This document shows positions 9,091-55,984 of a DNA stretch of 64,000 nt, one piece after another. The stretch is taken from the NCBI GenBank assembly GCA_963971425.1, contig OZ020520.1, positions 28,861,535-28,925,534 of the forward strand, read 5' to 3'. How positions within the stretch are numbered: position 1 is the first letter of the stretch; each line of letters begins with the position of its first letter. The notes under the pieces are model-generated. The model was not told the DNA's origin, made no database searches, and worked only from the letters and a program-made list of their open reading frames with translations. Source of the DNA: Bryoerythrophyllum caledonicum (lineage: Eukaryota > Streptophyta > Bryopsida > Pottiales > Pottiaceae). Both the position numbers and the translations under genes were made by a program.

Positions 9091-9253
9091 GCCAACCTCT
9101 CTCTCTCACTTTTTCCTTCCCCTCTCGAAAATTGAAATATATTTTTGAGTGGATGCGGAGTGGCTTTGGCTGGCATTTTTCCATCCATTGGCTCCTCATC
9201 TTTGGGAGGGAGAAAGTGATTCACATTTGGGGGGGAGTTTTTGCGGTTTTTTT

Positions 9254-9538: not shown

Positions 9539-9565
9539 ACTTCAAACGGCGGCGGGGTCAAGAAG

Positions 9566-29694: not shown

Positions 29695-30743
29695 TGTGAA
29701 GTAGTATTTTTATCCAAGTCGTGATTTAACACAATTGGATTCGAGTTCGTTCGCTAGGGAGGTAGATTATAAGATTTGATAAAGTTGTCACTATTGAATA
29801 CTTAAATTAATGGAACATATAAATGTAAGCCACAACGTCTTCTAAATTCCCATCGTCATAACATAAATCGTACTTGCAATGTAATATCACCGGTTGAATA
29901 TTCTTAATTCATACAATATAAAAATAATCTTGCTAAGTCATAACCACTTAGTTCAATTCTTTTTAATAATCAAATTATCGTCCACTTATTAAATTTATAA
30001 TCGCATGATTTCTAATTATCACCCATACACACATTCATAGTGGAATTCCAATATTTCCAAGTTAACTGTTCTCACAATTGGTACAATTCATACCAACAAT
30101 TTATTCCATCACTTCACATTTCCAATCTAGTTCTTGTCAATTTCATAATTCCATAACTAAATTTCCAACTATCACTAACTTCAAATCACAGTCTTCTCCA
30201 ATTTGATCTATTCACAGCATCATCTCACATATGCCCCATTGGCGATTTTCCATACAACACATACACCATTCCATCAATAACCAATTGCTTCTCAAATCAA
30301 CCACAATTCTCTCTACAATTAATTTTTCAATCGGTACACACAACATTCCTCAAATCACAGTCATTTTAATTCCACCAATTATCATTATATAATATATCAA
30401 CATATAAATTCGGCAATTTCCAATCGTCTACAAGTTCTCACACAAAATCTCTGTATCTCCAATTCTACCAACTCTAAACTTAACATATACTTCCTATCGG
30501 CGAGCATGGAAAAATAGATTTCCAATCGGTCTACAACCAATACTTGTACTCCCTATTGGCATGACGTTCCAAATCATGATCCATATCCACCAATTGGTAT
30601 CCATCCATTACCAACTGCCCTATCGGAACGTAACTCACTAACAGGGTCTAATAACACTAAGGATCTACTCCCATTGGCAAGTTCATACGTTCTAACCAAA
30701 AAATTTATTATTTGGAAAATTCCTACCTAAGTATCCTACCACA
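29695..30743 (-). repeat. 3' LTR of the gypsy element (left copy)
   Basis: It starts TGTGAAGTAGTATTTTTATC and ends ...TATCCTACCACA (TG...CA). It is about 98 percent identical by eye to the right LTR and is preceded by GATTG. Confidence 0.95.
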
Positions 30744-31468: not shown

Positions 31469-34400
31469 TTATATAAAATAGGGCTTTAATCGATAACCAT
31501 TAATCCGAGTGGGAAGCAAAGTCCCTTCAAAATCCTTCAATTGGGCAGATCCATTGGTGTTAATATCCACAACTTCATATGGGCCAATCCAGTGCATCTG
31601 GAGTTTACCCGGAAATTTGAAGAAACGACTGTCATAAAGGAGAACTAAATCTCCTACTTTAAATTCTTTATGGCGTAATTTAGAATCATAAAAAGATTTC
31701 CTTTTTTGTTGGGTGACATAAGTGTTGTAGACCGCCATCCAGCGCGCTTCATCTAAAGATTCCAATCTGGTTAGTCGAGCTGCTAGACTAGCATCATCAT
31801 CCAACCGGTTGTCAATGGCAATTCTTAAAGTTGGGATTTCAAATTCAATTGGTAATATAGCTTCTTGGCCGTATACCAATTGGAATGGAGTAAATTTTGT
31901 TGTCACCTTGTAGGCTGTTCGATAGGCCCATAGTGCTCCCCAAAGCTTGTCATCCCAATTGGTTCTAGATCCTGCAATAGTTTTTGTCAAGATTTTACAG
32001 AGAACCCCATTGGTCTTTTCCGTCTGCCCATTAGCTCGTGGATGATATGGACTTGTCTTTCTATGTTTGATGAAGAAGTTATTTGTGAGGATTTCAAATG
32101 TCGTATTTAAAAAATGGGTCCCCCGATCATTTATTAACTCCTTAGGACATCCATATCTTGATATTATATTTTCATAGAGAAATCTAGCAACAGTCTTGGC
32201 ATCGTCAGTTCGTGTTGCTGTGGCCTCCGTCCATTTGGTTGCATAGTCAGTTGCGATTAGAATATAACGGTTTCTCCCATGTCTGGTGGCTGGCGCTATG
32301 GGTCCAACAAAATCGATCCCCCATTTCTCAAATGGGGCCAATGCCAATAGGGGTTGCAATGGCATAGCCGAGGTTGGGGTAGGCTTCCCAATTCCTTGAC
32401 AGGGGTCACACTTCCGGGTATAATAATGGGAATCTTTAAAAAGGTCTGGCCACCAATAGCCTACCAATAAGGCTTTTCTTGCAGTGGCTTCTCCAGCAAA
32501 ATTGCCTCCACATACATCGGTGTGGCATCCCTCCAATATTAATGGTATTTCATGCTTATATACACATCGTCCTAAGATATCGTCATTTCCCCTTTTATAC
32601 AAAGTATTATCAATTAGGGTGTAAGGGCCACACTTGTGCACTAATGCACTAACCTGCTTGGAAGTATAGTCTAATGGTACTTTATTGGTAGACAAATATT
32701 CCAAAATTTCTTTATACTCAGGCTAAATAACTTCAACATCAAACAATTGGGCGTCTAGTAAATTATCATCAATAGGAACTAACTGATCAGTTGGTAGTGG
32801 TTCCAATTGGGACAGATGGTCCGCATTGGCATGACTTTTGTCTGGCCTCACCACAATTGTAAAATTAAACTCTTGAAAAAGTAATACCCATCGGGCTAAT
32901 CTGCCACTTAAATCAGGCTTATTGATTAAATACTTAAACGCGTCATGGTCCACATAGAAGGTGAAGGGGTATCCTAATAGGTAATGGCAAAATTTCTATA
33001 CGGCAAACACCATTCCCAATGCCTCCCTCTCAGTTGTGGAATAATTTCTCTCGGCCGCAATTAATTGGTGGCTAGCAAAATAAATGGGATGATCCCTATT
33101 CTTTTCATCTTTTTGGCTCAACACACAGACCAATGCAATGTTGGATGCATCAACATACACATGAAAGGGCTCACTCCAATTGGGTGGAATCATGACAGGG
33201 GTAGTACTTAGCTTTTCTTTCAACTGAATGAATGCTTTTTTGCATTCTGTCGTCCAAATTGGGCTTTGTCCTTTATCTAACTTCTTAAGTAGATTTGTAA
33301 GTGGAGCTGCAATTTGGGCAAAATTGGCGACACATCGCCTATAGTAGCTACACAAGCTTACAAAGCTTCTGACACCAGTAATTGTGGTAGGTCTAGGTGT
33401 ATTCACAATCAGGTCTACCTTATCGGGGTCGGTGGTTAGGCCTCGCTTGCTCACAATATGGCCAAGTAATTACCCATAGGGTACAATAAATTGGCATTTT
33501 GAAGCATTTAAGGATATGCCATATTTGGCACACTGTTCCAAACATAATGCTAATTTCTCTTGATGGTCCTTCTTTGTACTAAACACACAAAAATTGTCAA
33601 GAAAGATCTCCATAAATCGTCGTAAAAATTGCTGAAAAGCCATGGTCATCACCCTTTGGAAAGTAGCCGGGGCGTTACATAACCCAAATGGCATCACTCT
33701 ATAGGCAAAAGTACCCCAATCGGTGGTAAACGTAGTTTTTAATTGGTCCTCAAGCGCAATCTTGACTTGGTTGAAACCAGAGAAACCGTCAAGAAACGAA
33801 TAGCAATCGAGTCCGGCGACAGCGTCTAATATAGTGTCGGTAAAGGGAAGTGGAAAATAATCTTTCCTTGTTACCGCATTTAGCCTTCTAAAATCTTGAC
33901 ATATTCTAATTTTCCCATTCTTCTTGGGAACAACTACAATTGGGCTAACCCATTCACTAAAAGGAACCGGATATATGAACCCAATGTCTAAGAGTTTATC
34001 AATCTCTTCCTTCACCATCAAGGAATATTTAGGATTTAACCTATGTTGCCTTTGCCTAATGGGTTTAGATCCATCTTCCAGATTTATGTAATGTTGGCAT
34101 ACCTCAGTTGGGATGCCTTTGAGATCTTTGTAACTCCAAGCAAAGTTTGAAGTATGCTCCTTAAAAAATATTTTCCAATCTTTTAACTATCCATTAGTCA
34201 ATTCACAATTAATGTATATGATTTTAGCGTCATCATTTTCACCTATGTTTAGTTCCATACATTGGTCTTTAGGAACATGCTTAGCAATTGGAGTAGGATC
34301 TGACGAATATTCCCATAAGGGCTCACTTTCATAAGGAGGCTCCAATTCCGAAGGTGGAGCATCAATGGCATAAACAGGCCTATCAATTAACCAAGAATTA

Positions 34401-34551
34401 ATAGCTTTATCAGAATCAAGTTCTTCACCACATGGAATTGAAAATTCACCCGGTCCCAATTCAATATAAGTCCCAATAGGTGGATAATTATTAAAATCAA
34501 ACTTAGAATTTGTATGAATCCGATGGGCTCCTAGCTCCTCCTGTTCATCAA
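31469..34551 (-). pseudogene. pol: gypsy pol: end of protease region, reverse transcriptase, RNase H, integrase (defective)
   Basis: One minus-strand frame carries the reverse transcriptase (34021-33470; SFLDGFSGFNQ, MPFGLCNAPATFQRVM), RNase H (33454-32723; YVDASN) and integrase (32704-31469). In the integrase the Asp/Asp/Glu are in WGIDFVGP, INDRGTHF and GQTEKTNG. The reverse transcriptase active site reads FLDN instead of the expected Y/FLDD, and the integrase zinc motif has GGNFAG where a His is usual. TAG or TAA codons interrupt it at 34187, 33470, 32996 and 32723. The region is separated from its gag/protease part by the insertion at 34552-51303, across which the frame is preserved once the insert and one 8-bp duplicate are discounted. 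Confidence 0.92.
34544..34551. repeat. Left 8-bp target duplication of the giant hAT-like insert
   Basis: TTCATCAA here and TTCATCAT at 51304-51311 differ by one base. Eight bases is the hAT-superfamily target duplication length. Confidence 0.85.
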
Positions 34552-34785
34552 CAGGGTTGTTCTGGGGACCTCCCCGTCCGAAAGACCGGGAGGTCCGCTC
34601 GTCCGTCCGTTAAGGGTCAGGGGAGGTCCGTTATGGGTCAACTTAGGGTTGACCACCTGGAAGGTTAAAATTGTTTTACCTCGTCCACGAAGCATGCCAC
34701 GCGTATGACACGTCACCAAATTATTCGAAGGATAAAGTTGACATGGAGGGTTTAGGGTCTTCAGGTTTAGGTTGCAGGCATTTTG

Positions 34786-35015
34786 GGGCGTGAATGTCTC
34801 GGGGGAGGGGGGCGGACGTCTCGGGGGAGGGGCGCGGACGTCTCGGGAGAGGAGCGCGGACGTCTCGGGAGAGGGGCACGGACGTCTTGGGGGGGCGCGG
34901 ACGTCTCGGGGGGGGCCCGGACGTCTCCGGGAAGGGCCGGATGTCTCAGGGGGGCGCGGACATATTGGGGGGTTTCGGACGTCTTCGGAGGGAGGAGGGC
35001 ACGCACACCTAGAGG
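34786..35015. repeat. Left subterminal GC-rich cluster of the giant element
   Basis: About ten units of GCGGACGTCTCGGGGGAGGG type occur in one orientation. Apparent open frames across it in all directions are repeat artefacts. Confidence 0.85.
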
Positions 35016-35149
35016 GCCAAAACACATCACAAAATTTCTAAGGTATAGGGGATAGACCTACATGGTGTAAAATCAAATTTTTTATATATGGAATTGCAAA
35101 ATACATTCAATAACCTTAGTTAATGTTTTATGGACATTGACTAAGGTCA

Positions 35150-35150
35150 A

Positions 35151-35181
<31 letters not shown>

Positions 35182-35184
35182 TAT
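35150..35184. repeat. (AT)n microsatellite
   Basis: A poly-A run passes into about a dozen AT dinucleotides, just beyond the transposase 3' end. Confidence 0.9.
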
Positions 35185-35247
35185 GTTACTATTTATCAAT
35201 AACTCTATGTCTACTTCACTTCTATATGTAATATGTTGACCTCCTTA

Positions 35248-38200
35248 TCAATCATTTTTCGTTCTCGAGGCGTGTCGTCTTGGATTCAAACGAGTACCAC
35301 CTATGTCCAATGGTGCTCTCACAACAACATCTTCGTCATTGGGTGCCTCTGCACAACTATCATTCGATCCATCTGACCGCTCATCATCTCCACAAACTTC
35401 ATCCTCATCACCATAAGCATTAGGTGCATATTCCTCTACTGTTGAATTAATATTGCGCACTTCGTTATCGATTGTACCATCTACCATTGTAGTGACAATT
35501 CTCTTCACCTTTCTTCTTTTGTTTTGGTCGGTGATCCCATCCTCATTGATTCCACGTGTACCCACCATAGGTGTTGAAGACATGGAAGTCCGTCCCGTAT
35601 TTACTGAACAAAATGGGCGAACAATCTTTGGACCTACTCTTGATCGCTTTACACCACGCTTTGCAGTAGAAGGTCCAACTTTAGGAACCATTCCAGAAGA
35701 TGTGACCGAAGCCTTTGATTTTGATGTTGGAGTCAATGTGTCCGTTGAATCATGGCGAAGAGGTGTACATGATGGAGATCGACGACTCCTCCCAATTCCC
35801 GCAAGTATTGCACCTACTGAAGGTGTGTTGTTCGCCAACAATGTTCTAAACAATTGGCCAATAGGAACATCGTCCTCCTGCCCAGCGTTAGGACCCCCTA
35901 AACCAACATTTCTTGGAACGGTCTCATTTGATTCTTCACAACGGATACTTTCTTCAACATTTTGTTCAAATGCTTCGTGAGGTTGATGAACTTCATCTCC
36001 GTTAGAAACTTCTTCTTCATTTGGAATTTGCCATTGTTCCCTCCACCATTGTCATTGTTGTCATCACTCTGAATGGAATAGTCATCATCATTATCGCTAT
36101 GATTACCACTCCGATGTTCATCAGATCCTTCTTCATCGTCTACATCATCATCGGCACGGTCGTATGCAACGATGCCTTCATCTTGCATATCATTAACCAC
36201 ACGGTTAGTGCCCACAGGTGACTCCCCGTCAAGTTCCAACCAATCAAAAACTCCATTCGGTTGGTTTAGGGGTTCATCGTGCGGCATATTGGCACCTACA
36301 TTGTCCGCGGGAATTTCCCCCCCTTGGTCATCGGCATCATCATCACCAACATCAACACCACCATTGCGTTCACCGCCATCACGATCTTCATGACCATCAG
36401 GCCATCCGCCATCACCACCGTCATCATTTTCTTCATCAACGTCCATTGGTACAAACTCAGGATCCGAGTCCTCAGAAAACGGTTGGTTGTCGTACCAGAT
36501 AATAGGGTCTGCTCCACGTCGTTCCCGAAGAAGCTTACTATTGGTGTAAATGTACACCAAGTCCTCTGCCTTCTTTACGCCTAACCGATTGCGAACCTTG
36601 TTGTGAACGAACGAATACATGCTCCAATTCCGCTCACATGATGATGCCGAGCATGTTAATAAAAGAATACGTTTAGCTATCATAGGTAGCGCATTGCCCC
36701 CGACCCTCTGCCACCATTGATGAGGTAGCATCCGTGTCTCTCGAATGTCTGGGGCCTCCAGAGGGCCGTAAGGTCCTGTTCGCTCCTCAAAGTGTGTTAG
36801 TTCGTCCATCACACGGTTGTGGTTTAATCCAAGGCACCCACTTAAGTGCCTTAGCACTCTATTGCGTGCACGCTTTGCAATTCCATCACTTTGAAGTTCT
36901 CCGCACTCCGTCAAATATGGATTCAATAGAGCAGCTGCATAGTGAAGATCTGTCAACATCATCTTCCACCTCCGGTTGAATTGCCTCTCGAAGCGGATTG
37001 CTATAATAGGGTCAAGTAAAAATGGTGCATTACGTAGACCAAACACATGCTTCTTAAAATTATTCATGGCCAACCATGCCCCTCCCCATCGCTGGAGTTT
37101 GTCCATCAAAGGTCCTGTGAGTCACAATAGCTGGCTCCACGAGATGCACAAAATTCTCATAACGCACCCAGAACGTCTCGTCAAGAATAGTATTCCTGAC
37201 CAAACATGCTAGTGCGTGAGCACGATGTCCGTTTTGGCGATTGAATAAAGTACTCTTGTATTCCACCCATTTCTCATGGACTACCACTTGGAGTAGTGCT
37301 GCTTTCACCCTCATCAATCGACTAATCATCAAAAAATGGCAGGCAAATCTTGTCTGTGTTGGCAAGAGTAGAGACAATTTTGGGCTGAACTGGCGAAACA
37401 AAGCCATCGTCACATGACGAGTCCTTATATAAACGCATATGCGTTTGGCCAAAATAATCAAGTCCTTGAAGATTTCTTCCTTGCCCCAATCTTCCAAGAG
37501 GAGATCAATGATGTGAGCTGCACAACCTTGCTTATAAATGTGTGGAAAATCCTCTACCACCATGTCCATAGCTCCCAACATTGCACTGGCATTGTCTGAG
37601 CAAATTTGCACCACGTTTTGCGGTCCCACAACTACAATGTACTCCTTCAATTTCCCAGCTATATATCCTTTGTCTTTTTTGTTCCCCGTTGTATCAATGG
37701 AACCAAGGAATATATCTCCAACAGGACACACAAGCATGACATTCACCAATGGACGATGAACAACATTGTCCCATCCATCTGTGCAAATAGTTGCTCCATA
37801 TAGGCTTGTACAATGCTTCGTTTTCTCTTCTATTTGCAACTTCACATTGTTCCTCTTTGGCTCAATGTGCCTTGTACGCACTGCATTATAGCTTGGTGGA
37901 TGATAGTCAAAAGCCGCTTTCGAGGTTGCTTCCACTGCGTCGACAAAGGTTGGATGTCTTATCACATTGAATGGCACATTTGCTTCGTAGAAGAATGTTG
38001 CCCATTTTTCATTCAATTCATTGCGCTTTGCAATTCGACAAGCCTCAGTCATGCTTTGTTGCCGCATAGTTCTTGGGGTACAAGAATCAGCTCTACTAGG
38101 GACGGCGTTGATTGAGATCGTTCGATCTGGGATGTTCTTTCGTCATTTGTAGAGTCCGGCACTTCTACATATTCTCCACCGTGCATAGACTGACTAGAAC

Positions 38201-38489
38201 ACGGTGCGACAGTGGCAGCAGATGACGTACCATTTGAACCATAGATTTCCGCATGCGTCATTCTTTTGGGTATTACACCACCGCAATTAGCAAAGTGCCT
38301 AAATATCGTTCTCGGGGCCTTCGGACAATGACACTTATCTGAATCTGTATCGTATCCGTAGTGCTTAAAAGCCCTCTATCGTTTGTAACGGAAGGTCTCG
38401 TTGCACCACACACATTTTACATGGTCTTTGTCTATGAACGTCCACCACGGGGCCCATTCTTTCGTCGGTTGGCGGAGTGGACCCGCCAT
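35248..38489 (-). pseudogene. hAT-superfamily transposase, broken
   Basis: The start at 38489 (minus) opens a BED-type zinc finger (WAPWWTFIDKDHVKCVWCNE) that meets a TAG at 38376-38378. The 38067-37060 stretch is the DUF659/RNase-H-like core: TICTDGWDNVVHRPLVNVML and QICSDNASAM hold the expected catalytic Asp residues, followed by GCAAHIIDLLLEDWG. After a frameshift near 37100, 37109-36040 carries the C-terminal hAT dimerisation motif (SASSCERNWSMYSFVHNKVR). An acidic tail follows, and after a second shift near 36035 a basic, Ser-rich tail to 35248. One stop plus two frameshifts make it inactive. It is the natural transposase for the element it sits in, flanked on both sides by its GC-rich clusters. 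Confidence 0.9.
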
Positions 38490-38699
38490 GTTTCATACCA
38501 CAGTAGAAGCTGAATATAAATCCTTAATCTGCAAGCGTTAGTATGTCACATGCAAAACAATTGATGGTATGTGTGGACATCAACCAAAGGCCAATGTGAT
38601 CCACTTAGTCTCAAGCAAGGAGCCCACATGGAGTTCCAGGACAAGAGGCTAATGCTTGAAATAATGATGATTGCCCATCTTCGGTGATATATGTCCTAG

Positions 38700-38880
38700 A
38701 CAAGGAGGCGCGGACGTCTCCGAGGGGGGGCGCGGACATCTCCGGGGGAGGGGGGCGGACGTCTCCAGAAGAAGGGCGCGGACGTCTCGGGGGGGGCACG
38801 GACGTCTCGGGAGGGCGGACGTCTAGGGGGGTGCGGACGTCTTCGCAGGGGCCCAGACGTCTAGGGGGGAGTAATGGGCG
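38700..38880. repeat. Second GC-rich cluster, upstream of the transposase gene
   Basis: Eight or so GCGGACGTCTC-GGGGG units occur in the same orientation as the left terminal cluster, lying between the transposase and kinase-like genes. Confidence 0.85.
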
Positions 38881-40309
38881 CAAATGTGTAGATTGTGGGC
38901 TTCCTTCCCCTCCCGTTATTCCTCCCAAACTAAAACTAGACATACAACCTTTTCATCGCAACTATAACACATAGTTAACAACATTAAGATTTATTTCTAT
39001 CATGCAAATTTACAAACAATGCCACGTAGGCAATCAAAATGTTCAAAAATTGCTCTATAACTTCGCCACTACAATGTACATCTAAAACAATTGTCGGGGA
39101 CTATGAAGTTGTAGGGGGGACCTAGGAAATATGCTACAACTTGAGCAAGTGATGGCCTTTTTGTGGGGTCTTCGTGAACTAAAGCATCCAACTTTGTTGT
39201 GAATGCTATGGTGTCCATGGTATTCTTGAAGAGGTCTGGACACTTGTCGTAGTCCAGTAGTTCGTATTTCTTAAAATTAACCAAAATTAACCTTAAGAAA
39301 GCCCCACCTAACCGGATTAGTTCCAGGGATTTCTATCGTGCGTTAAACAATTTACTTCTAAACACAAAGCCATTTCAAAATACCTTAGCACATCCCGGAG
39401 ATTGGCTTCCCGGGCATTTTCATGACCAACAAATAGCAACCGACTTGTTTAGTTTAAACTCCGTTGAGCGTCGGAGTAGATTTCCGGTGAGTTTTTATAG
39501 TGCCCGGAAAATCACTACCCTCCGTTCTCACAGTCCAGAGGCCATCAAAAATCCACAAGCTAAACTACCCTTAGATTTAGACAAAAGGTTGTAGTTAGTT
39601 TCCCCGGGTTTCACAATCTCCCGGAAGGCTACCCCGGGGAGGTTTTCCCGGAAAAGCCTTCCCGGTGAATAGGTCACGCAAACCCGGGTTTCCCACCACA
39701 ACCACACCTAATGAATCAAAGCAAAAATAATGTAAGAATCATAACAAGCTAGTGTCATACAAACAAAATGAGCAAGACTTCCTTCTACGGGGATTATGGA
39801 GCCTCATCCGCCGCAAGGGTAGAAACCTTAGAATACTCTAAGATAAGGCTTAACCGGCACCTCTACCGGCGTACCAAGAGTGGGGATATCACCCCTCCTC
39901 TCCTACCAATCCAAGCACTTCCCACTTAAGGAACGCTATCATTAATAGCGGTGGGTTTTCCCGGATCCCGGATCCGGTGAAAACAACCCTTCCCGGTCCC
40001 GGACCGGTCTCTAGGGTTTGAAGTAGGTCCCGGACCTCCCTTCACCTATTCTAACTTGGATGCCCTACACCCTCCAAAAGCCTCGGGCTCACAACACACA
40101 CTAGCAAGTCACAACTTCACATCACCTAGGCAAAGACACACTAGGAGGATTCACCTCTTTCTATCTTCACTTGCAACAAACTCTACAAAAGTCAAGACAA
40201 CATATCAATGAAGACACAAAGAAAAGAAAGAAGACACAAGGATACATATAAGGACACCAAAGACATGAGCAAAGACATAAACATAAGCAAAGACACAAAG
40301 AGGGAGAGT

Positions 40310-40492
40310 GAAGATACAAAGAAGGAGTGTAAAGACACAAAAAACACAAGCAAAGACACAAAGAGGGAATGAAGATACAAAGAAGGAGTGTAAAGACACA
40401 AAAACACAAGCAAAGACACAAAGAGGGAATGAAGATACAAAGAAGGAGTGTAAAGACACAAAAACACAAGCAAAGACACAAAGAGGGAATGA
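40310..40492. repeat. 60-bp tandem repeat, three copies
   Basis: Units starting GAAGATACAAAGAAGGAGTG recur at 40310, 40371 and 40431 within a broader AAAGACACAA-rich tract. Being 20 codons long, the unit keeps frames open on both strands; those frames are artefacts. Confidence 0.9.
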
Positions 40493-40985
40493 ATTAAAAG
40501 GAGCACCAAGCCTCCCTTAAGTACACCAAGGCCACTCACTAAACTACGAAAACCTAGATCCACAAATCATGGAAAAAAGAATCTAGATCCTATAATCTAG
40601 GGTGGCCTAGTCACCGGGACACCGGGAAATCCCGGTTTCCCTTCCCGGTAACCATATCCTCAACAATAAGAGGAAAATGGAAGAATTCACTTAAGTGGCA
40701 ATGACCGGGTGCACAATAGGGCCCCATTGACATCATTACTCTCACTTAGTTCAATCAACCACCTTCCAAAATCTTCCCACCAATGGTAGGAAAATTACAT
40801 AACAAAACATAACATTTAACAAAAAAAACATAACGAAACATAACATGACATAACCAGTAGCATTGAAACATAGACTTCGGTAAGTCTAGTCGGAGAAATA
40901 ATAAACATCCTCCTCTTCCTCCTCTAAGCATTCAAAATGCTCGTAAAGGTGAAATAGGTATGGCGTGAGGAAAACTTTCGTATTC

Positions 40986-41540
40986 TCACCTTCTTGAATG
41001 GCACGAATTTGAGGTGTTAACACTTCTTGAAGAAGAAGTGCCCAATCCGGAGAGGAGACGTCGAAATAAGCTTGCACATAAGCCGTTGCCCAACCTCACC
41101 GGGATTCGCTCCTTCCGGTTGGGATGGAAAATCGAGTTTAAAAACTCAATCACCCTTCTCAACCTTAAATCGATGAAGCATGAGCTATGATATCCCTCGG
41201 AGGAATCATAGCTCCGAGAGGTGTGAGAATCTAGCAATACCTTGTTATTTCTCGGCTTCCAACCCTCCCGGTTTTCGAATGAGTAGACCTTCCTCCATTT
41301 CCTTCGAGTCCATACCCGAGGCTTGGCCCGGTAAGCTTCCCGGGAAGTCCCGGGTGATGCCAATTCTTCCACTACTCCACCTCCCGCCAACTTCCAAGGC
41401 TTCTCGTATAATCCTCCACACCCCATCCGAATGAGATCCTCTTCAAGTTGCCTTCCTTCTTCCGTCCCTTCCCGCTTGTTGGGATCCACTTTCAACAACT
41501 TGAAAGTAGCCGGTAGAGCCATGTTGTCCGGGAAATTCAC
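40986..41540 (-). CDS. Unrecognised protein of the 3.8-kb block
   Basis: A 184-codon frame begins MNFPDNMALPATFKLLKVDP and includes GGLYEKPWKLAGGGVVEELA and RLRRVIEFLNSIFHPNRKER. The first half looks like genuine conserved protein; the last 30 residues are Ser/Arg-rich and may be frameshifted, since a second frame (41077-40886) with QAYFDVSSPDWALLLQEVL and an acidic end overlaps. It resembles retroelement-type coding but no domain is firmly recognised. It is probably the gene of whatever element forms this block. Confidence 0.45.
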   Translation of the reverse strand: MNFPDNMALPATFKLLKVDPNKREGTEEGRQLEEDLIRMGCGGLYEKPWKLAGGGVVEELASPGTSREAYRAKPRVWTRRKWRKVYSFENREGWKPRNNKVLLDSHTSRSYDSSEGYHSSCFIDLRLRRVIEFLNSIFHPNRKERIPVRLGNGLCASLFRRLLSGLGTSSSRSVNTSNSCHSRR

Positions 41541-42344
41541 CGGGACACCTATGTCTCAAAAATGCTACTTGACTTACACAAAAACAACACTTAAGTACAA
41601 CACCCCTTTTGAAGTAAAGAGGTTTCTCAAGGGTTTACCGGTGACCACCGGGAGACCGGGACAAACTTAGAATTTGTGCAAGACAAAGTTATGCAAAATT
41701 TGCATAACTCTTCTCACAAATCCAAACAATCACAAGCCTTCTTACAAAAGAAGAGAAACAACAATAGAAGTGAGAGTAGGAGTTTTTATGACAAACAAGG
41801 AGATTTTACAAACAAGCAATTGTACAACTAGAAGTTGCACATACACAAAAGATGAAATTTACAAGGTGGAGGCACTTTGCTTACAAAGATTCAAGTGCCT
41901 TGGAGTTGCTTCCGCCACTCCTAGTCTCTTTGCGCTTCTCGCACTCTTACAACCTTCAAACCCCAAAAACCCTAATCTAAAATAGATTTAGTTTTTGGGT
42001 TTTCTTCCGTCTTCTTCTTCCTTCAAGCTCCAAGCTCCACCAAGGTTTTTAAGATTCAAACCCTAACTCTAAATCTCTCAAAACTTAGTTTCCTCACTTC
42101 TAAAATTTAAAGACACAAAAAGAGGAAATCCTTCCTCTTGTAATTGTGCAAGCCTCTTTACTCACAAACCCACCAATTGTATCTACCCTAGACACTCCTC
42201 GGTCTCTTACTTCCTTGCATCAAAGAGAACAAGAAAAATGAGAGACAACCCAAGAAGAACAACAAAAAAAAAAACAAACAACCTCTCCTCCCCTTGGTGT
42301 CTTCGCGGCCCTCCTCTTCTTCCTCCTCTATTAAAATAAAAGCT

Positions 42345-42530
42345 ACTGTCCGGGCCGGGGGATAGGGTCCCGGTCCCGGTCCTTTTTTTTTTTTTTTTTT
42401 TTTGACACAAAGTCCTGTCCGGGCCGGGGGATCGGGTCCCGGTCCCGGGCTGGTGGTCGGGCCGGGGGTTGTGACCCGGTCCCGGCCACCACAGGGTCGG
42501 GGTTGGGATCCCGGCCCTGGGCCATTTATT
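42345..42530. repeat. Duplicated GC-rich motif with poly-T
   Basis: TGTCCGGGCCGGGGGATAGG at about 42348 recurs at about 42416 with one change, separated by a 20-base T run. Further GGTCCCGG units follow to 42530, then a long A/T-only tract. Confidence 0.8.
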
Positions 42531-43611
42531 TATTTATATTTTTTTTTATTTTTTATTTTTTTATTTTTTTAATTATTTTTTTTTTTAATATATTTAAAAA
42601 AAATCTAATTTATTTTATTCTTTTCTAATTAAATAAAAATCTAATTCATTTACAAAACAAAACATAAAGACTAACTAACTGACTAAAAGAATTTGAAAAA
42701 AAACTACAATTACTAATATAACTAATCTATCTTCTTACTAATCTAGTTAAATAAGGTATTAACTAATATGTGAAAACCTTAACTATAAAAATTTGATTAG
42801 AATGGTGGTTCCACATAAAGAAGTACCGGGAAGGTTTTCGGACTATCCCGGGAAAGGTTTTCCCGGCCTCCCGGGCATCTTTCATAGTGTTTCCGGGTAT
42901 AGGAATTTACTAGTTTAAGACCCGGTATTATTACCATTCTAAAACTAATTAAGAAGTTAAGCATTTTCCTATTTTACCTAATTCTTATACTAACTAATTA
43001 TATGTACAATTAACTACTTTCTAACAACAATTAATCAAAACAAATACTTTTAACTCATTTTTTAGTGGGGCCTATAAAGTGGGAGTTTTCACACTTCCAC
43101 AACACTCCTTGCGTTGCCATATCATTTTTGCCGAAAAACCGACCGCATATGCATCCGATTCCATTGTATATGGATGCAACCTCTACATGCGTTCCAAATT
43201 GCGCTCCTCGTCGTTTGGTCCCCCAAACACAAAAAACAACTCGGGGGCAACATATCGCTTCCGTTCCTTCATTTCCCGGCATCGATCTTCATCTTGGAAA
43301 CCAAAATACGAGGCCTTGTTTTCTACAGGGTTGTCAGGACGCTCGACGTCCCTGACGTCTGGACGTCAGGACGGAGGACGTCCTCGAGCCTATCAGGACG
43401 TCCGGTGACATAACGAGTTTTGTCAGTTTACCCGGGGGTAAATAGCCATCCGCAGCCCTGGCCGGTTGTTCGGCCATTAGATGCGACCACCCTCCGTCCG
43501 CCCGGTGGTCGGTCAGTGGCGTCCATTCCGCCGTCCACTCGCCGCGACCGCTCGGTGGTCGGTCGGTGCCGACCGCCAAGCCGTCCGAATTGTAGTCGGC
43601 GCTCAACCGTC

Positions 43612-43770
43612 CGAATGGCGGTCGGCAGTTGGCCGTCCGCCCGGTCGTCCAAATTTCAGTCACGGGTTGGCCGTCCGGTAGCCGTTCGAATGGCGGTCGG
43701 CAGTTGGCCGTCCGCCCGGCCGTCCAAATTTCAGTCAGGGGTTGGCCGTCCGGTAGCCGTTCGAATGGCG
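43612..43770. repeat. Tandem GGCCGTCCG-rich units inside the non-autonomous hAT
   Basis: A ~75-bp unit with GGCGGTCGGCAGTTGGCCGT, CCAAATTTCAGTCA and GGTTGGCCGTCCGGTAGCCG is repeated, with looser GGCCGTCCG copies either side. Confidence 0.85.
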
Positions 43771-43848
43771 GTCGGCGTTTTGGCCGTCCGATCGGCCGTC
43801 CGAATGGCGGTCGGCCGTCAGCCGTCCGCCTGGTTGTCCGAATGGTGG

Positions 43849-44048
43849 NNNNNNNNNNNNNNNNNNNNNNNNNNNNNNNNNNNNNNNNNNNNNNNNNNNN
43901 NNNNNNNNNNNNNNNNNNNNNNNNNNNNNNNNNNNNNNNNNNNNNNNNNNNNNNNNNNNNNNNNNNNNNNNNNNNNNNNNNNNNNNNNNNNNNNNNNNNN
44001 NNNNNNNNNNNNNNNNNNNNNNNNNNNNNNNNNNNNNNNNNNNNNNNN
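43849..44048. other. Assembly gap (200 N)
   Basis: A run of exactly 200 N lies inside the GC-rich repeat of the non-autonomous hAT. The round number suggests a placeholder, so the element's true length is unknown. Confidence 0.99.
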
Positions 44049-45882
44049 CGGCCAATCCGACGGACGGCCGATGGCCCATCCGACAATCGGATGGCCAATC
44101 TAACGGCCGGCATGCCATCTAACAATCGGACGGCCGGTCCGACGGCCGGTGGGCCGTCCGCCGGGGGGCCGTCCGCCAATCGGACGGCCGGGCGGCCGTT
44201 GACTTGATCGGACGGCCGTCACGCGCCCGCGCGATCAAATCGCTGCTGTCCGATCAGGCGGACAACCGAGGTGCCATCCGATCTCTCCGACGGCAAGGAC
44301 CGATCCGACAACCTGTCGCATTTCGACGGCAGAAATCTCGCCGCGTGGCACTTCGTCGAATCTGACGGTCCTAAAAACTTACCAGGCCTTCCGTAAATGC
44401 ATTTTACCTCCCCTGATGCTGCGTCCGACGTGACGTCAGGACGTCCTCGTTCTAGGACGTCCTAGGACACTCTCAGACCCCCAAGGACGTCGGATTGGTA
44501 ACCCTGGTTTTCTACAATTCGGCTTGCCATCCCCCAATCACACACTCCAATATATACTTTCTCCACATCCTCCGATGGAAAGTGGAGTAGAACATTTGAC
44601 GGTGTTACATCATTGTGGATGATTTTTGCCTTATGGACTAGGTCCATTACATATATAAGAGCCCAAGCCAACATTGCTCTGTTCTTTCGAAAGGCAACAA
44701 TTTTTTGGCTCTGCTCGATGGTGAGATGTTTTATTTTCATTACTTCCTTGTTGCTTATTGCCTCAGACGCCAAGCTATTGAATTTTTGTAAGTTGCGAAT
44801 GCTATCACCGTTCCACCACAATGTATAGGCTTCCATGCTATTTGAATTAATAGCCCAAAATTTAATCACCTGGATGCTGAACGGGGCAAACTAGAGCCTC
44901 AATTGAACGTTGCTCACGCTTCTCACGTTCAGTTTTAGCCATTGAAAGTTTGCCCGCAAATTCAATGTGGATTGGAATATCTGGCATATCTACAATCCGT
45001 ACTTTCCGCACTTTGTCGTATCCTCCTTGAGAATCAAACCCAGACAATGCCACAATCTTTGTCTTCTTTGGAATCCACACTACTCCCGAGTGCATGTGTT
45101 GTTCCATCGCCGCCTTCAGCGCTTGTTCATTCCAAGGCATGCCTTTTTTATTGCCTCTTGAATGTTTTCCACATTTCTTTTGAACCCACATTAGTTTCTC
45201 AAGAAACTGAGCGTCTTCATCGCTCCTCGCTTCTCCCCTCTCTATTTTACCACACATTCAAACACATGCGTGATGTTTGTTGTAGTTGTGATGACTTGTT
45301 GTGCCATCCATTTTGGAGCATGGAAATACTTGTTGTGCCATCCATTTTGGAGCATGGAAATACTTGTTCATGCAATCCATAAACTGCTCAGATTGAGCGA
45401 GTTTGCTCCAAAATTCACGTTCCAAATCAGCCTGTAGCTTTAAAACCCCCACATGTCCATAATCCAAAAATGATTTCTTCAACATATCTCGTGTACGAAT
45501 ACGATAGTAAGTGATGGTCACCTCTCTAATGAACTCTGTGTATTCCTTTGGTGGATATCCTTCGTCCCTCTCGTTGGCGGAAATATTCTTCTTATTCTTC
45601 TTCCCCCCGGAGCTCGAAGAGGGAGTTTAACCAGTTCCCGATTCCGATCGTACCCGGCTCATGGGGTCCATCGCCTCCGGAGCATCCAAATCTTCATACA
45701 TGGGCCTTTTGCCAGATCCTTGCTTTGAAGACATCCTGAAATAGTTCCTGCACAAAAAAAAAAAAAAAAATCTCCCCTTCCAAATCTGAACATTCCACTA
45801 TAGTTCCAAGCAAGACGCGCGTTCACACGTCAAGACAAGGAGCCACTATGGAATGGAATGAAGTTGGTCCGAACTCTTTGAG

Positions 45883-45891
45883 CTTTATATA
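45883..45891 (-). promoter_or_regulatory. TATA box of the kinase-like cargo gene
   Basis: The minus strand reads TATATAAAG about 150 bases before the ATG at 45734 and right beside the third GC-rich cluster, the same arrangement as in the kinase gene at 9566. Confidence 0.55.
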
Positions 45892-45960
45892 CTCGTCCGC
45901 GCCCCCTGGACCTGTCCGCGCCCCCCCCCCCAACCCGTCCGCGCCCCCCCCCCACCCGTT
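45890..45960. repeat. Third GC-rich cluster, upstream of the kinase-like cargo gene
   Basis: Four GTCCGCGCCCCCC-type units are inverted relative to the clusters at 34.8 and 38.8 kb. Confidence 0.8.
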
Positions 45961-46004
45961 CGCTCGCCTTTCGCGCCCCATTCAACATTTAAAGTCTACA
46001 CCAC

Positions 46005-46225
46005 TACACTAAATATCTGTAGTATACACTATTTGACTTGTAATTGCTATAAGTATTCACTCTTAGTGAATCTTTTTTACCATCTGTATCCACAATGATC
46101 CGCCTCTTTCAGTAGTATAAATAGTTGTGCTTTCTGTAAGTAAATTCATCAAAAGTAAAAAGCTATAGCGCTTCAAAATCGTGTAGTGTGGGTACAGTAA
46201 AAGTGATATTTAGAGTAGTATTTAC
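46005..46225. mobile_element. Possible MITE related to the one at 13718
   Basis: CACTACACTAAATATC at 46007 is imperfectly inverted near 46207-46223 (GATATTTAGAGTAGT), and GTGTAGTG occurs at 46182. The motif matches the arms of the 13718 element. The ends are not resolved. Confidence 0.35.
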
Positions 46226-46559
46226 TGTAAAAAAGTCCTTAGTGTAAATATAAGTTTCCTCCCCAATAAAAAATTTCCACACATTGTCAAGCAAGAGGGC
46301 CTTTCCTTCTCACCTCCGAACCTTATGTACTAAGTTCCTTCATCATAGAAACTTGTAGTTTATCTCTAGTCTCTTTTACTTTCTATTCCAAAAGTAGACT
46401 TTGTAATCCAATAGTAGACTCTCTATTCCAATAGTAAACTTTTAATTCCAAAAGTAAACTTTCTATCCCAACAACATACTTTCTATTCCAACAGTAGACT
46501 TTAATACATTCCACTACGTATGTAAAATAAATCATTGGGTTGAATTGGATTTTAGATAT

Positions 46560-47725
46560 ATACATTCCACTACACTTAAAGAAAAAAATAAACAGATGTC
46601 GCATGTCAAATATATCATTGGGTTGAGTTGCATTTTAGCTATATACATTCCACTACACTTAAAAAAATAAATAAACGGATGTCGCATGTCAAATATATCA
46701 TTGGGTTGAGTTGCATTTTAGCTATATACATTCCACTACACTTAAAGAAAAAAATAAATGGATGTCGCATGTCAAATATATCATTGGGTTGAGTTGCATT
46801 TTAGCTATATACATTCCACTACACTTAAAAAAATAAATAAACGGATGTCGCATGTCAAATATATCATTGGGTTGAGTTGCATTTTAGCTATATACATTCC
46901 ACTACACTCAAAGAAAAAAATAAACGGATGTCGCATGTCAAATATATCATTGGGTTGAGTTGCATTTTAGCTATATACATTCCACTACACTCAAAGAAAA
47001 AAATAAACGGATGTCGCATGTCAAATATATCATTGGGTTGAGTTGCATTTTAGCTATATACATTCCACTACACTTAAAGAAAAAAATAAATGGATGTCGC
47101 ATGTCAAATATATCATTGGGTTGAGTTGCATTTTAGCTATATACATTCCACTACACTCAAAGAAAAAAATAAACGGATGTCGCATGTCAAATATATCATT
47201 GGGTTGAGTTGCATTTTAGCTATATACATTCCACTACACTTAAAGAAAAAAATAAATGGATGTCGCATGTCAAATATATCATTGGGTTGAGTTGCATTTT
47301 AGCTATATACATTCCACTACACTCAAAGAAAAAAATAAACGGATGTCGCATGTCAAATATATCATTGGGTTGAGTTGCATTTTAGCTATATACATTCCAC
47401 TACACTCAAAGAGAAAAATAAACGGATGTCGCATGTCAAATATATCATTGGGTTGAGTTGCATTTTAGCTATATACATTCCACTACACTTAAAGAAAAAA
47501 ATAAATGGATGTCGCATGTCAAATATATCATTGGGTTGAGTTGCATTTTAGCTATATACATTCCACTACACTCAAAGAGAAAAATAAACGGATGTCGCAT
47601 GTCAAATATATCATTGGATTGAGTTACATTTTAGCTATATACATTCCACTACACTCAAAGAGAAAAATAAACGGATGTCGCATGTCAAATATATCATTGG
47701 GTTGAGTTGCATTTTAGATTTATAC
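46560..47725. repeat. 83-bp tandem repeat, about 14 copies
   Basis: The unit contains CGGATGTCGCATGTCAAATA, TATCATTGGGTTGAGTTGCA and TTTTAGCTATATACATTCCA. Copies recur every 83 bases from about 46593 to 47672, nearly identical apart from ACTTAAAG/ACTCAAAG and CGG/TGG variants. A diverged start is at 46500 and a diverged end at 47725. Short repeated open frames are by-products. Confidence 0.97.
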
Positions 47726-47846
47726 ATTCGAGTTTTAACTTCAAAAGTTGCAATTGTGTTAGTAACTCTTAACACATAAGACGTTTTAAAAAGTAAAGGT
47801 GGAAATCTTAAGTTTCGAAAAGTAAAAGTGAAAGTCGCAAGTTCAC

Positions 47847-47854
47847 TATATAAA
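47847..47854 (+). promoter_or_regulatory. Candidate TATA box for the RING cargo gene
   Basis: TATATAAA follows the 83-bp array and precedes the fourth GC-rich cluster. It lies about 500 bases upstream of the ATG at 48349, so the leader would contain the cluster. Confidence 0.4.
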
Positions 47855-47909
47855 CTCAGAAACTTTACTTGAGTATGGTGTGAGGATTGTATCGAAAATT
47901 ATTTTAGGC

Positions 47910-48050
47910 GTGCCCCCCCATCCCCCGAGACGTCTGCGCCCCCCGAGAAGTCCGCGTCCCCCTAGACGTACGGACCCCAGGCGTCCGCGCCCCCCCAAGA
48001 GGCGTCCGCGCCCCCTCGACACGTCCGCGCCGTGAGCCGTCTGCGCCCCC
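47910..48050. repeat. Fourth GC-rich cluster, upstream of the RING cargo gene
   Basis: Units such as GAGGCGTCCGCGCCCCC and CCGAGACGTCTGCGCCCC occur in the right-arm orientation. Confidence 0.8.
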
Positions 48051-48106
48051 AGGGGTACAAAAGAGGAGTGCGCGCCCATTGTCCCCACTTTTTCATTCCT
48101 CATCCA

Positions 48107-48282
48107 GGAATTCAGGCCTAAAACTGCCTTACGGCGGCTTTTTGCTGACTACTTGGATGAGCTACAGACTTGTTATACGACGACACGTGTCCTACATCAG
48201 TGGAACACTCATCTCAACCGGGAATTCAGGCCTTAAACTACCTCACGGTGGCTTATTGCTGAATACTTGGGTGAATTTATTT
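48107..48282. repeat. Two ~60-bp direct copies, 117 bp apart
   Basis: GGAATTCAGGCCTAAAACTG with CTTACGGCGGCTTTTTGCTG at 48107 recurs at 48224 with about 10 percent differences, in the leader region of the RING cargo gene. Confidence 0.8.
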
Positions 48283-48348
48283 TGTGCGGCGAACTAAATT
48301 TGTTGTTAGTGTGTTTTTTAACACACTTGAGTTTGTCAACGGGGCTCA

Positions 48349-50690
48349 ATGGAAGGAAATGCAGTGCCAGAAATTGGGGCGGTTCGGAAGAGAGAGAGAG
48401 ATCGGACTCGGAAGCAGGCGGGGGCCATACAGAAGAAGCGGGAGCATGTTTTGAAGAACCCCAATAAATTGGCATTCAAAGGTTGGTGGGACGTGCCAGA
48501 TCCATGAAAATATTCCACATGTGAAGAATACATTGAGTGGTGCCATATCACCAAACTATTTCCGCTTGAGCGCCACCATTTCCATCGCCATTCAGAGAAG
48601 GCAAATTTGACTTATTGTCGGAATCAAGATTTTGTTCAACGTTGTATAGAAGTTTTTCAACATTTATACAACCTTCCGATCTTGAAGCGCAATAAAGCAC
48701 CTCTCTTCATTTGCAGAATGGTGTATACAAAGGTAATTCTTCACAAAGTGGTGGATTGGACCACCATGAAGTCTACACCACACATTACGGTGCCAACAGA
48801 GCCGCAAATTCCAAGGGAGAAGAAATTTCCGGATGGTGGATTGGGAAGAATAATTAAGGCCGGTCGAAGCGGATTTGAGAAGGTGCACGAGACAGAAGAA
48901 TCTGATTCAGATTCAGATTCAGACGGGACTCGCTTTCCACGAGCGAAACGTCGACCTACTAAACGTCGTGGAGCGCCGAACGTTGCACCAACACCCGTTG
49001 TTGAAAACATGGACCCCGCGGAGAACAGTGAATGGGTTCCGGTGCTCACGGAGGTCATTGGAGACCCCGTAGTATCCGTGGAGGTGATAAGTGTGCCAGT
49101 TGCTAGACAACGCGACGAAACGGATGAGATGTCCAAGATGCGAGTACTTTTGGAGAAGGATGATTTCATCGCAAAATTGCAAGCCACCATCCAAAGTCTC
49201 AAGTTGGAAGTGACGACAAAGGACATTAAGATTTCAAGGTTGCAGAATCAGTTGCAACAACGGCAACCAATGGAACATGTCGAAGTACGTGAAACAGTTG
49301 CGGTTCACGATCCGCTGGAGGTGGATGAGAATTTCCTCAACAACGTGGTTGATATTGTAACGGCTGGTGTGTTACAAGAAATTCATACACCGGCCAAACG
49401 ACAACGTCCTCCCATCATTCTTCCTCCAATGGGCCCATTGGTGCAACTATATGTGGACATTGACGGTGCACTTAGCGAAGACTCATTGTCATTTCCAACA
49501 AACATTCAAACGGATGAAGTGAATGAATTGAGGAAGGCAAATGATGAATTGCGCCTTCGTCTTTCAAAGATGTCAGAATCGTACTATCAGTGGAAGGTGG
49601 CAACCATTCTTAATGCCGATTGCGGTCGTCAGATAGCAAATGAGTTCAAGAGGATTGACAATGAATACTTGGAACACAACACGCGAAGGGATTTTGGCCT
49701 CACGTCGTGGAGTAGTTCCGATGAAATGTTTCCATCTGATTTGCCAATAACCACTGGAGAGCCGTCACTCATTGATTGGGCAAAGGTGGACTTTGATCAC
49801 GAGAATGCTAGATCCATCTATGATCTATAATTGAAAGAAGGAATTACCAGCAGACAACTGTGGCCGCAACCCCGCACCATGGATGTTCGATGGCACCAAA
49901 TGCGTAATGTGTTATAATCCATTTGGCCCTGAGGGTGGATGGGCCCTTGGATCATGTAAACACATGTTCCATCCAATGTGCTTAATTAGCATATTTTTAG
50001 TTAGAAGATTTTGCCCAAGTTGCCGTGCTCCATTTCACGCACGCCTTTACGAGGTATTTGGACTCACAACGTACATGCCACCAAGCCATGAGAAAGATCC
50101 AATTAACACCCCTGGTGAAGGTTACCGCCGTCAATTGGGGCGAAGATTTAATTAGGAGTTGGCGTGCCCAAACTCATTCAGTGTTCAAGAACAACATCAG
50201 TATGTCGTTCGGGTGGGAGCACGACCACACTGAGATTGTGAGGGTGTGCCATAAGATCATTGGAACTGCTCCAGGTGACGAAGGGAAGCGGAATTTCTTC
50301 TACCAAACTATGGATGGCTATTGGGATTCTAGAAAGAAAAAATTCCAATTTGGTAAGCATCCTAAAGGCTTCATGTGGAACAGGAAGGGAGAGTTGGTTA
50401 CAGACAAATGTGGGCATGCAAGCATGACAGCCCTTGAAGCAGTCCAGATGGATCTTTCACAGTGGAAAGAGACTTGGAGAAGTGAAGCCGTGGACTTTCT
50501 TTTGGACGAGCACAGTCCATCAACGCTGGCGATGTCTCGAAGAATTGAGAAACTCGCAAATGTTGCATAATCTCAGTGAGGTGGATGGTCCATTTCGGCG
50601 GACGCGAACGAGAGCGAGGCGCAGCCTCATATTGGGCGACGAAGCGGGACCAAGCGGCACAACGGGAGGAAATGAAGATGAGTAGACATA
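48349..50690 (+). pseudogene. Coiled-coil/RING-H2 cargo gene, decayed
   Basis: The ATG at 48349 starts MEGNAVPEIGAVRKRERDRT. A TGA at 48505 interrupts, and the same frame runs on to 49830 with an acidic Ser/Asp run, a basic patch (RAKRRPTKRRG) and coiled-coil segments (about 49130-49260 and 49520-49590). The next frame (49883-50155) encodes a complete RING-H2 finger: CVMC, 14 residues, CKHMFH, C, 10 residues, CPSC. The third frame (50025-50570) continues with SWRAQTHSVFKNNISMSFGW and KHPKGFMWNRKGEL. A short tail ends at 50685 in another frame. The three successive frame changes could be introns or frameshifts. RING fingers usually act in ubiquitin ligases; the rest is unrecognised. It lies between two GC-rich clusters of the giant element. 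Confidence 0.65.
49889..50050 (+). other. RING-H2 zinc-finger domain within the cargo gene
   Basis: The ligand spacing C-x2-C-x14-C-x1-H-x2-H-x2-C-x10-C-x2-C is complete and matches the C3H2C3 RING class, even though the surrounding gene is decayed. Confidence 0.85.
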
Positions 50691-50929
50691 GATGTAGTGT
50701 TAGTTTAGCAATAGGAGGTGAAGGATAATTGCGTTGGCCCTTTCTTTTGTGTGAGTTTTTGGTTTGAAGTTGAATGACATGTTTTTTCCTTCTCACTTAT
50801 CCACAACGTTGCACACCTCATGAATGACGAGTATCTCAAACACAATACATTTGCCATTGCGGTGAATCCAACTTTTTTAATATGTTCTTCATTTTTCCTT
50901 GGTAACTAAGTTTTCCATTGCAACCCCTC

Positions 50930-51070
50930 TTGAGGCGTCCACGCCCCCCCCCCAAGGCGTCCGCACGCCCCCCGAGGCGTCCACGCCCCCCCTCCCCCCG
51001 AGGCGTCCGTGCCCCCCCCCGAGTCGTCCGTGCCCCCCCAGACGTCCGCGCCCCCCAGACGTCCGCGTCC
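50930..51070. repeat. Right subterminal GC-rich cluster of the giant element
   Basis: Eight GAGGCGTCCRCGCCCCCC-type units are inverted relative to the left terminal cluster. The outer sequence also shares CTGGGGACC and CGTCCGTCCG motifs with the left end. Confidence 0.85.
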
Positions 51071-51303
51071 CCCTTCCAAATTTGAAATGCCGATGTGGCC
51101 TTTCAAGTCGTCCACGTCACCAATCGCTTGTCCATGTCATCGTATGACTTTAACTTTTCGTACATTGTAAAAAAAAATTCACCGCGGTAATTTTTGCTCC
51201 TCCCCTCAATGACCGATTTTTCTGGGGACCGCCCGGTTCGTCCGTCCGAATGTCCGTCCGGTCCGCAATATTTGGGCCATGTCCGTACTTTATGACAACC
51301 CTG

Positions 51304-54910: not shown

Positions 54911-55984
54911 TGTGAAGTAGTATTTTTACCCAAGTCGTGATTTAACACAATTGGATTCGAGTTCGTTCGCTAGGGAGGTAGATTATAAGATTTGATAAAG
55001 TTGTCACTATTGAATACTTAAATTAATGGAACATATAAATGTAAGCCACAACGTCTTCTAAATTCCCATCGTCATAACATAAATCGTACTTGCAATGTAA
55101 TATCACCGGTTGAATATTCTTAATTCATACAATATAAAAATAATCTTGCTAAGTCATAACCACTTAGTTCAATTCTTTTTAATAATCAAAATTATCGTCC
55201 ACTTATTAAATTCATAATCGCATGATTTCTAATTATCACCCATACACACATTCATAGTGGAATTCCAATATTTCCAAGTTAACTGTTCTCACAATTGGTA
55301 CAATTCATACCAACAATTTATTCCATCACTTCACATTTCCAATCTAGTTCTTGTCAATTTCATAATTCCATAACTAAATTTCCAACTATCACTAACTTCA
55401 AATCACAGTCTTCTCCAATTTGATCTATTCACAGCATCATCTCACATATGCCCCATTGGCGATTTTCCATACAACACATGCACCATTCCATCAATAACCA
55501 ATTGCTTCTCAAATCAACCACAATTCTCTCTACAATTAATTTTTCAATCGGCACACACAACATTCCTCAAATCACATAGTCATTTTAATTCCACCAATTA
55601 TCATTATATAATATATCAACATATAAATTCGGCAATTTCCAATCGTCTACAAGTTCTCACACAAAATCTCTGTATCTCCAATTCTACCAACTCTAAACTT
55701 AACATATACTTCCTATCGACGAGGAAGGAGTTCCAGCACTCCAAGCATGTAAAAATAGATTTCCAATCGGTCTACAACCAATACTTGTACTCCCTATTGG
55801 CATGACGTTCCAAATCACGATCTATATCCACCAATTGGTATCCATCCGTTACCAACTGCCTTATTGGAACGTAACTCACTAACAGGGTCTATTAACACTA
55901 AGGATCTACTCCCATTGACAAGTTCATACGTTCTAACCAAAAAATTTATTAATTGGAAAATTCCTACATAAGTATCCTACTAGA
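54911..55984 (-). repeat. 5' LTR of the gypsy element (right copy)
   Basis: It matches 29695-30743 with about 17 substitutions and three small indels by eye, including a ~22-base insertion near 55720. It is followed by the target duplication GATTG. Its outer end reads ...TAGA where the left copy has ...CACA, so the terminal dinucleotide has mutated. Confidence 0.95.

Follow-up and report, generated by a model that had tools for sequence, protein, structure and literature searches.

A decayed three-gene hAT transposon, carrying kinase and RING genes beside its transposase, in the moss Bryoerythrophyllum caledonicum

The usual description of a hAT element is of a transposase gene flanked by two ends. 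In this work we analysed a stretch of 64,000 nucleotides of the genome of the moss Bryoerythrophyllum caledonicum (assembly GCA_963971425.1, contig OZ020520.1; C8:28861535-28925534 in the numbering used here), hereafter called the window, in which an insertion within a gypsy coding region contains a hAT transposase gene, a kinase gene and a gene for a RING protein. Searches over the 437-Mb source assembly, from which alone the evidence for this trio is drawn, showed the insertion to be a real single multi-gene hAT element, moving, to judge from its sequence, as one unit and making 8-bp target duplications. The best explanation overall, to which we assign a probability of roughly 0.8, is that the window copy is a decayed three-gene hAT transposon whose native length is about 10.8 kb, with the kinase and the RING protein as accessory functions.

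The insertion is delimited by short terminal inverted repeats (TIRs) and by a duplication of its target site:

34552 to 51303, plus strand: whole hAT insertion, 16,752 bp including nested insertions
34552 to 34560, plus strand: left TIR CAGGGTTGT, starting exactly at 34552
51295 to 51303, minus strand: right TIR ACAACCCTG, ending exactly at 51303
34544 to 34551, plus strand: left target-site duplicate TTCATCAA
51304 to 51311, plus strand: right target-site duplicate TTCATCAT, matching the left duplicate at 7/8 positions

An earlier note on this DNA had claimed these ends with an 8-bp duplication and precise borders inside a gypsy coding frame, and had suggested, as a check, a search for empty gypsy sites. 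The coordinates proved exact, and the joined gypsy flanks form a single open frame across 99/99 codons. Uninterrupted gypsy copies were located at C4:21402645 (97% identity, 300/300 bases), C9:773156 (95%, 298/300) and C14:12404901 (94%, 265/300), and additional copies uninterrupted at the site have 70-77% identity to the joined 300-base flanks. Both of the uninterrupted copies that were read have TTCATCATCAGA at the empty site, i.e. the duplicate TTCATCAT, so that the window duplication was originally 8/8 and its mismatch is explained by one later change in the left duplicate. When the window was scanned for end pairs of the form [CT]AGGG...CCCT[AG], 200-25000 bases apart with at most 2/9 TIR mismatches and at most 1/8 flank mismatches, three were found: 34552-51303, the nested pair 43326-44506 and an implausible pair at 31479-41974. 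Direct repeats at about 30000-30739 and 55217-55980, 96-100% identical and about 25.2 kb apart, are probably the long terminal repeats (LTRs) of the gypsy element hosting the insertion.

Copies were searched with the 400-bp left end (best 40 of 210 candidates scored at full size, window included) and with the 230-bp right end (best 40 of 108 candidates scored at full size), and ten loci were retrieved for comparison. Nine of the 40 scored left ends belong to three-gene copies with both ends at most 17 kb apart and the same gene order, namely the window copy, B, D, E, F, G, H, I and C1:15.435M. Target duplications of at least 7/8, all distinct, flank eight of these nine (8/8 in E, F, H and I; 7/8 in the window, G, C1:15.435M and, by eye, B); by arithmetic, a chance match of this quality is expected about 4 times in 10,000 per copy. 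The proposal that the three gene units belong to a single hAT element was thus borne out, and the contrary outcome, that its ends never co-occur elsewhere, was tested and not observed, as both ends were found together at other loci with duplications of their own. Copies D-I are mutually 93-95% identical. Copy A has both ends and an 8/8 duplication without the kinase, and copy C lacks a right end but contains the transposase and the kinase. Four left ends are accompanied by all three genes with the nearest right end 23-38 kb off (J among them), 19 are kinase-only, and for six the match lists contain no hit to any of the three genes. The TIRs CAGGGTTGT/ACAACCCTG, of (C/T)AGGG type, are found in most complete copies, with variants at C1:15.435M (TAGGG), in B (right end altered) and in K4 (CAGGGTTTT). 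The element combines the hAT features of an 8-bp duplication, short (C/T)AGGG-type TIRs and a transposase with the hAT dimerisation region and catalytic motifs.

The three genes lie in the window as follows:

35593 to 38489, minus strand: hAT transposase gene with DUF659 and hAT dimerisation regions, mapped from tblastn pieces; broken in the window copy
39072 to 45740, minus strand: kinase gene in pieces at about 45740-44507, 43325-43102 and 39244-39072, split by two nested insertions; broken
48349 to 50682, plus strand: RING gene, about 780 amino acids; broken in the window copy
49901 to 50023, plus strand: RING-H2 finger, all eight ligands (C3H2C3) intact in the window copy

Their identities as hAT transposase, kinase and RING genes, proposed in the earlier note with the third as a coiled-coil/RING gene, agree with Pfam and profile matches. 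The transposase matches DUF659 (PF04937) at 1.6e-32 and Dimer_Tnp_hAT (PF05699) at 2.1e-5 (24.7 bits, cut-off 21.4), and has a long acidic tail. Its motifs CTDGW, SDNASAM, GCAAH and SCERNW, which we take to be the catalytic D, D, E and C..H motifs of hAT transposases, are present in most of the 13 mapped copies. The Pkinase match was scored on other copies (9.9e-12 in E, 8.7e-14 in I), the kinase of the window copy being interrupted; GGYGKV, AGK, HND, DWG and APE, presumably the G-loop, lysine, HxD, DxG and APE motifs of eukaryotic protein kinases, occur in several copies. A zf-RING_2 match was obtained for 7/7 chosen relatives of the RING gene (best 5.5e-6; member 1 at 26.8 bits, under the cut-off of 27.3), and the RING profile matches solved E3 ligases, with RNF24 at the top (9.5e-8). 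Most copies retain the hAT, kinase and RING motifs, and every mapped copy has stops in at least one of the three genes; the window copy has one in-frame stop in the transposase, one in the kinase and two in the RING gene, plus frame breaks. A search for kinase relatives in viral and prokaryote contig collections confirmed none (9 and 11 pattern matches), which says little.

The earlier note had taken 16.75 kb as the size of a giant element. It had missed two nested insertions, each flanked by a duplication of its own, and a repeat is expanded in the window copy:

39245 to 43101, no strand assigned: nested 3,857-bp insert, TG...CA, ACACT duplication, solo-LTR-like
43326 to 44506, no strand assigned: nested hAT derivative, 1,181 bp long and from a second family, between GTTTTCTA duplicates, with a 200-base N run inside
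46520 to 47729, no strand assigned: 83-bp tandem repeat, 14.6 units in the window copy, fewer in A and D-I

An LTR pair was looked for inside the 3,857-bp insert and none was found; the insert resembles a solo LTR of great length. Core matches of the 83-bp repeat number 16 in the window, 4-8 in D-I and one in A. Subtraction of both nested inserts and one duplicate each leaves 11,701 bp, partly made up of the expanded repeat; over these 11.7 kb the window copy is colinear with further complete three-gene copies sharing both ends. Five copies (D, F, G, H and I, the last including 200 N) measure 10.7-11.2 kb, B 9.7 kb, E 12.8 kb and C1:15.435M 12.9 kb. By these comparisons the native length is about 10.8 kb, and the giant size is an effect of the two nested insertions and the expanded repeat.

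The association of the three genes is older than these copies. At two further loci, X (C2) and Y (C9), the trio is present with unchanged gene order and strands, at a DNA identity of about 70-79%. Ratios of nonsynonymous to synonymous substitution rates (dN/dS) were computed by NG86 with bootstrap ranges, the majority codon of 11 copies serving as reference. Between this majority and X, dN/dS was 0.35 (0.29-0.44) for the transposase, 0.42 (0.31-0.55) for the kinase and 0.48 (0.40-0.58) for the RING gene; the corresponding values against Y were 0.30, 0.53 and 0.46 (upper limits 0.39, 0.69 and 0.57), and those between X and Y were 0.40 for the transposase and 0.47 for the RING gene. Since dN/dS between subfamilies is below 1, all three genes were selected before the copies decayed. 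Codon comparison thus shows a trio of transposase, kinase and RING gene kept together under purifying selection across subfamilies, least clearly for the kinase, where the signal is weakest. Long-term selection on kinase and RING protein suggests that they help the element in its life in the host. The term cargo, applied to them in the earlier note, is misleading, as both genes are old, co-inherited in X and Y and under purifying selection, and not a recent pick-up.

Five arrays of a GGACGTC-type motif are spread over the window copy, close to its two ends and also between genes; those on the left share one orientation, and those on the right have the reverse:

34785 to 34995, plus strand: array 1, subterminal
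38707 to 38869, plus strand: array 2, between transposase and kinase
45906 to 45968, minus strand: array 3, upstream of the kinase, in reverse orientation
47922 to 48031, minus strand: array 4, upstream of the RING gene
50932 to 51073, minus strand: array 5, subterminal

By motif count, A and D-I all contain the two left arrays; for the reverse motif there are 3-5 matches in D, E, G, H and I and one each in A and F. In the kinase-only copy K1 the junctions lie in or beside arrays (array 1 to array 2, and the array 4 region to array 5), which is the pattern expected from recombination between arrays. The 19 kinase-only left ends comprise nine with a right end 3.7-5.7 kb away, three with one at 8-21 kb and seven with none. 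The nine with right ends 3.7-5.7 kb away were examined for duplications, which were 8/8 in five, 7/8 in one, 7/8 by eye in another that has its site in common with a further copy, and missing in two (K1 and K8); duplications of at least 7/8 were thus present in 7/9 copies, at six independent sites. Two kinase-only copies, at C11:13107794 and C11:13202945, have near-identical flanks and belong to a segmental duplication about 95 kb apart. The kinase-only elements have transposed as well. Eighteen kinase rows were assigned to this class, and a left end was listed for 16. The kinase match breaks at residues 326-329 in 11 of the 18, continues past this point in two and ends elsewhere in five, so that most kinase-only copies seem to go back to one whose kinase was broken. 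As a class sharing this break has spread, the kinase is probably dispensable in cis.

Relatives at 43-61% protein identity form a more distant class: kinase at 43-46% (57 rows), RING gene at 44-49% (32 rows) and transposase at 51-61% (49 rows), part of them without stops, drawn from the best 93 of 2244, 58 of 3765 and 67 of 2962 candidates, respectively. Among the matches listed, divergent kinase/RING neighbours about 2 kb apart were found four times (0.125 expected), transposase-kinase neighbours twice (0.19 expected), both on opposite strands, and transposase-RING neighbours once (0.11 expected). Owing to this pattern the kinase was sought beside the transposase and RING locus on C10, and it was found: 500 bases there encode a kinase C-terminus of 113 amino acids with one stop, 93% identical to another member of the distant class. 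The order on C10 is transposase (minus), RING (minus), kinase (plus), so that, compared with the window family, the kinase and RING genes are inverted as a pair. Comparison of one distant-class kinase with solved structures gave only matches above 0.1. The 43-46% kinase and 44-49% RING classes each comprise dozens of dispersed matches, part of them without stops, and such matches could be annotated as host kinase or RING genes, distorting gene-family counts.

The window also contains an end of a second hAT-like family, separate from the three-gene element:

8632 to 11050, plus strand: second hAT-like family, terminus TAGGGTTACC followed by an open 494-amino-acid kinase frame at 9566-11050

Over 398 bases the 8632 end has 80% identity to the nested element of 1,181 bp at 43326-44506, and the kinase has 33% identity over 262 residues to that of the three-gene element. 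The best 40 of 560 candidates for the end, scored at full size, are 91-100% identical, as are at 94-100% the best 87 of 2125 scored for the kinase, 30 of which have no stop by our own count. At 28/40 of the ends the kinase lies 0.88-1.09 kb inside on the same strand. No right end of the 8632 copy was found within the window; the kinase is near the terminus, and no transposase was seen in this copy. The terminus at 8632 adjoins a frame with a weak kelch match.

In the mechanism we propose, the transposase would bind at the TIRs as well as at the subterminal GGACGTC arrays, and would perform cut-and-paste transposition. Kinase and RING protein would be accessory functions of the element, presumably not needed in cis because kinase-only derivatives, mostly with a broken kinase, still spread; most likely they would act as a pair, through phosphorylation plus ubiquitination, and their target would be either the dose of the transposase or a silencing factor of the host. 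Recombination between arrays would delete, and perhaps flip, gene modules. Several points weigh against this explanation. The accessory roles are ones that we infer from sequence. Copy D has both ends and lacks a matching duplication. The kinase value between X and Y is 0.66, that between K1 and the majority is 0.71 (0.52-1.19), and within the subfamily dN/dS is 0.88 for the transposase, 0.58 for the kinase and 0.63 for the RING gene, which largely reflects decay. The kinase of copy E, searched as a single sequence, had no match among solved structures at 1e-3, the kinase profile is weakly similar to solved kinases (CaMKII, 8e-5), and the AlphaFold2 kinase model was too poor for use, with a mean predicted local distance difference test score of 38.5. 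In the distant class, finally, what is shown is a co-location of the genes, and a single trio locus was seen.

A pile of nested insertions mimicking one element might be suspected from the segments 39245-43101 and 43326-44506, which have duplications of their own (ACACT and GTTTTCTA), but the other 11.7 kb is colinear with complete three-gene copies sharing both ends; full-length copies with independent duplications were found, and we consider the pile extremely improbable. Pack-type capture, by which one hAT master took up host kinase and RING genes and carried them passively, is unlikely. hAT and other plant elements do acquire host sequence, according to PMC2528002, and the kinase-only class has spread mostly with a broken kinase and a dN/dS of 0.71 with a wide range; however, the trio is conserved in X and Y at dN/dS 0.30-0.53, its genes are neighbours in the 43-61% identity class, and the listed kinase and RING relatives (best 93 of 2244 and 58 of 3765) are dispersed and multi-copy.

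We favour an accessory pair, and two forms of it seem about equally likely, neither of which we would hold other than tentatively. The pair could serve counter-defence, the kinase marking and the RING ligase removing a host silencing factor, by analogy with VANC of VANDAL, an anti-silencing open reading frame according to PMC6446971. The divergent kinase/RING neighbours of the distant class, the retained motifs, the selection on both genes and the related kinase kept by the young second hAT-like family would suit such a role, which is nevertheless deduced from domains only. The pair may instead be a self-limiting device that regulates the dose or DNA binding of the transposase itself: the same domains and co-inheritance would fit, and the acidic tail of the transposase could be modified, whereas the second-family copy in the window has a kinase near its terminus and no transposase seen, its right end not being found. 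A wider scenario is conceivable, though we would not lean on it: an ancient multi-gene hAT lineage would be shielded from silencing by a co-inherited kinase/RING signalling pair, the module would be lost, flipped or moved by recombination of subterminal arrays, and a young kinase-bearing relative would have spread at high copy number.

The three-gene element resembles maize Ac/Ds and grapevine Hatvine in its 8-bp duplication, short TIRs, hAT-dimerisation transposase and deletion derivatives, and Ac/Ds also in its subterminal repeats (PMC3260210). Unlike Ac, given as 4.6 kb in that same paper, and the grapevine hATs of stated length, which measure 2-5.5 kb (PMC2528002 Table 2, where Hatvine-6 is variable), it is about 10.8 kb long and has two extra conserved genes. 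Hatvine-6, with transduplicated host sequence, is likewise a hAT with sequence beyond the transposase; its extras, according to PMC2528002, are common to few elements only, whereas here the same two genes recur in nine complete copies, in X and in Y, under selection. Hatvine1-rrm, considered as a gene-carrying hAT, was dropped from this comparison, RRM standing for reiterated reproductive meristem in an abstract. The MULE elements VANDAL/Hiun (vanB, vanC) similarly combine a transposase with element-encoded proteins, one of them anti-silencing (PMC6446971), but belong to a different superfamily, and the word kinase is absent from the main text of that paper. No kinase- or RING-bearing hAT was found among the listed titles and starts of abstracts of open-access papers, the best 8-20 of up to 1,977 matches per search, an absence that is weak. 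If our reading is true, a hAT lineage in which kinase and RING protein are retained under selection would possess its own regulatory or counter-defence machinery, like some MULEs, and its arrays would provide a concrete route for losing, flipping and perhaps exchanging element genes.

Elsewhere in the window, an open frame at 5052-6077 encodes a 341-amino-acid Tc1/mariner-like transposase (DDE_3, HTH_Tnp_Tc3_2), and an open 529-amino-acid frame with an RNase_H match, which we guess to be LINE-like, lies at 11525-13114.

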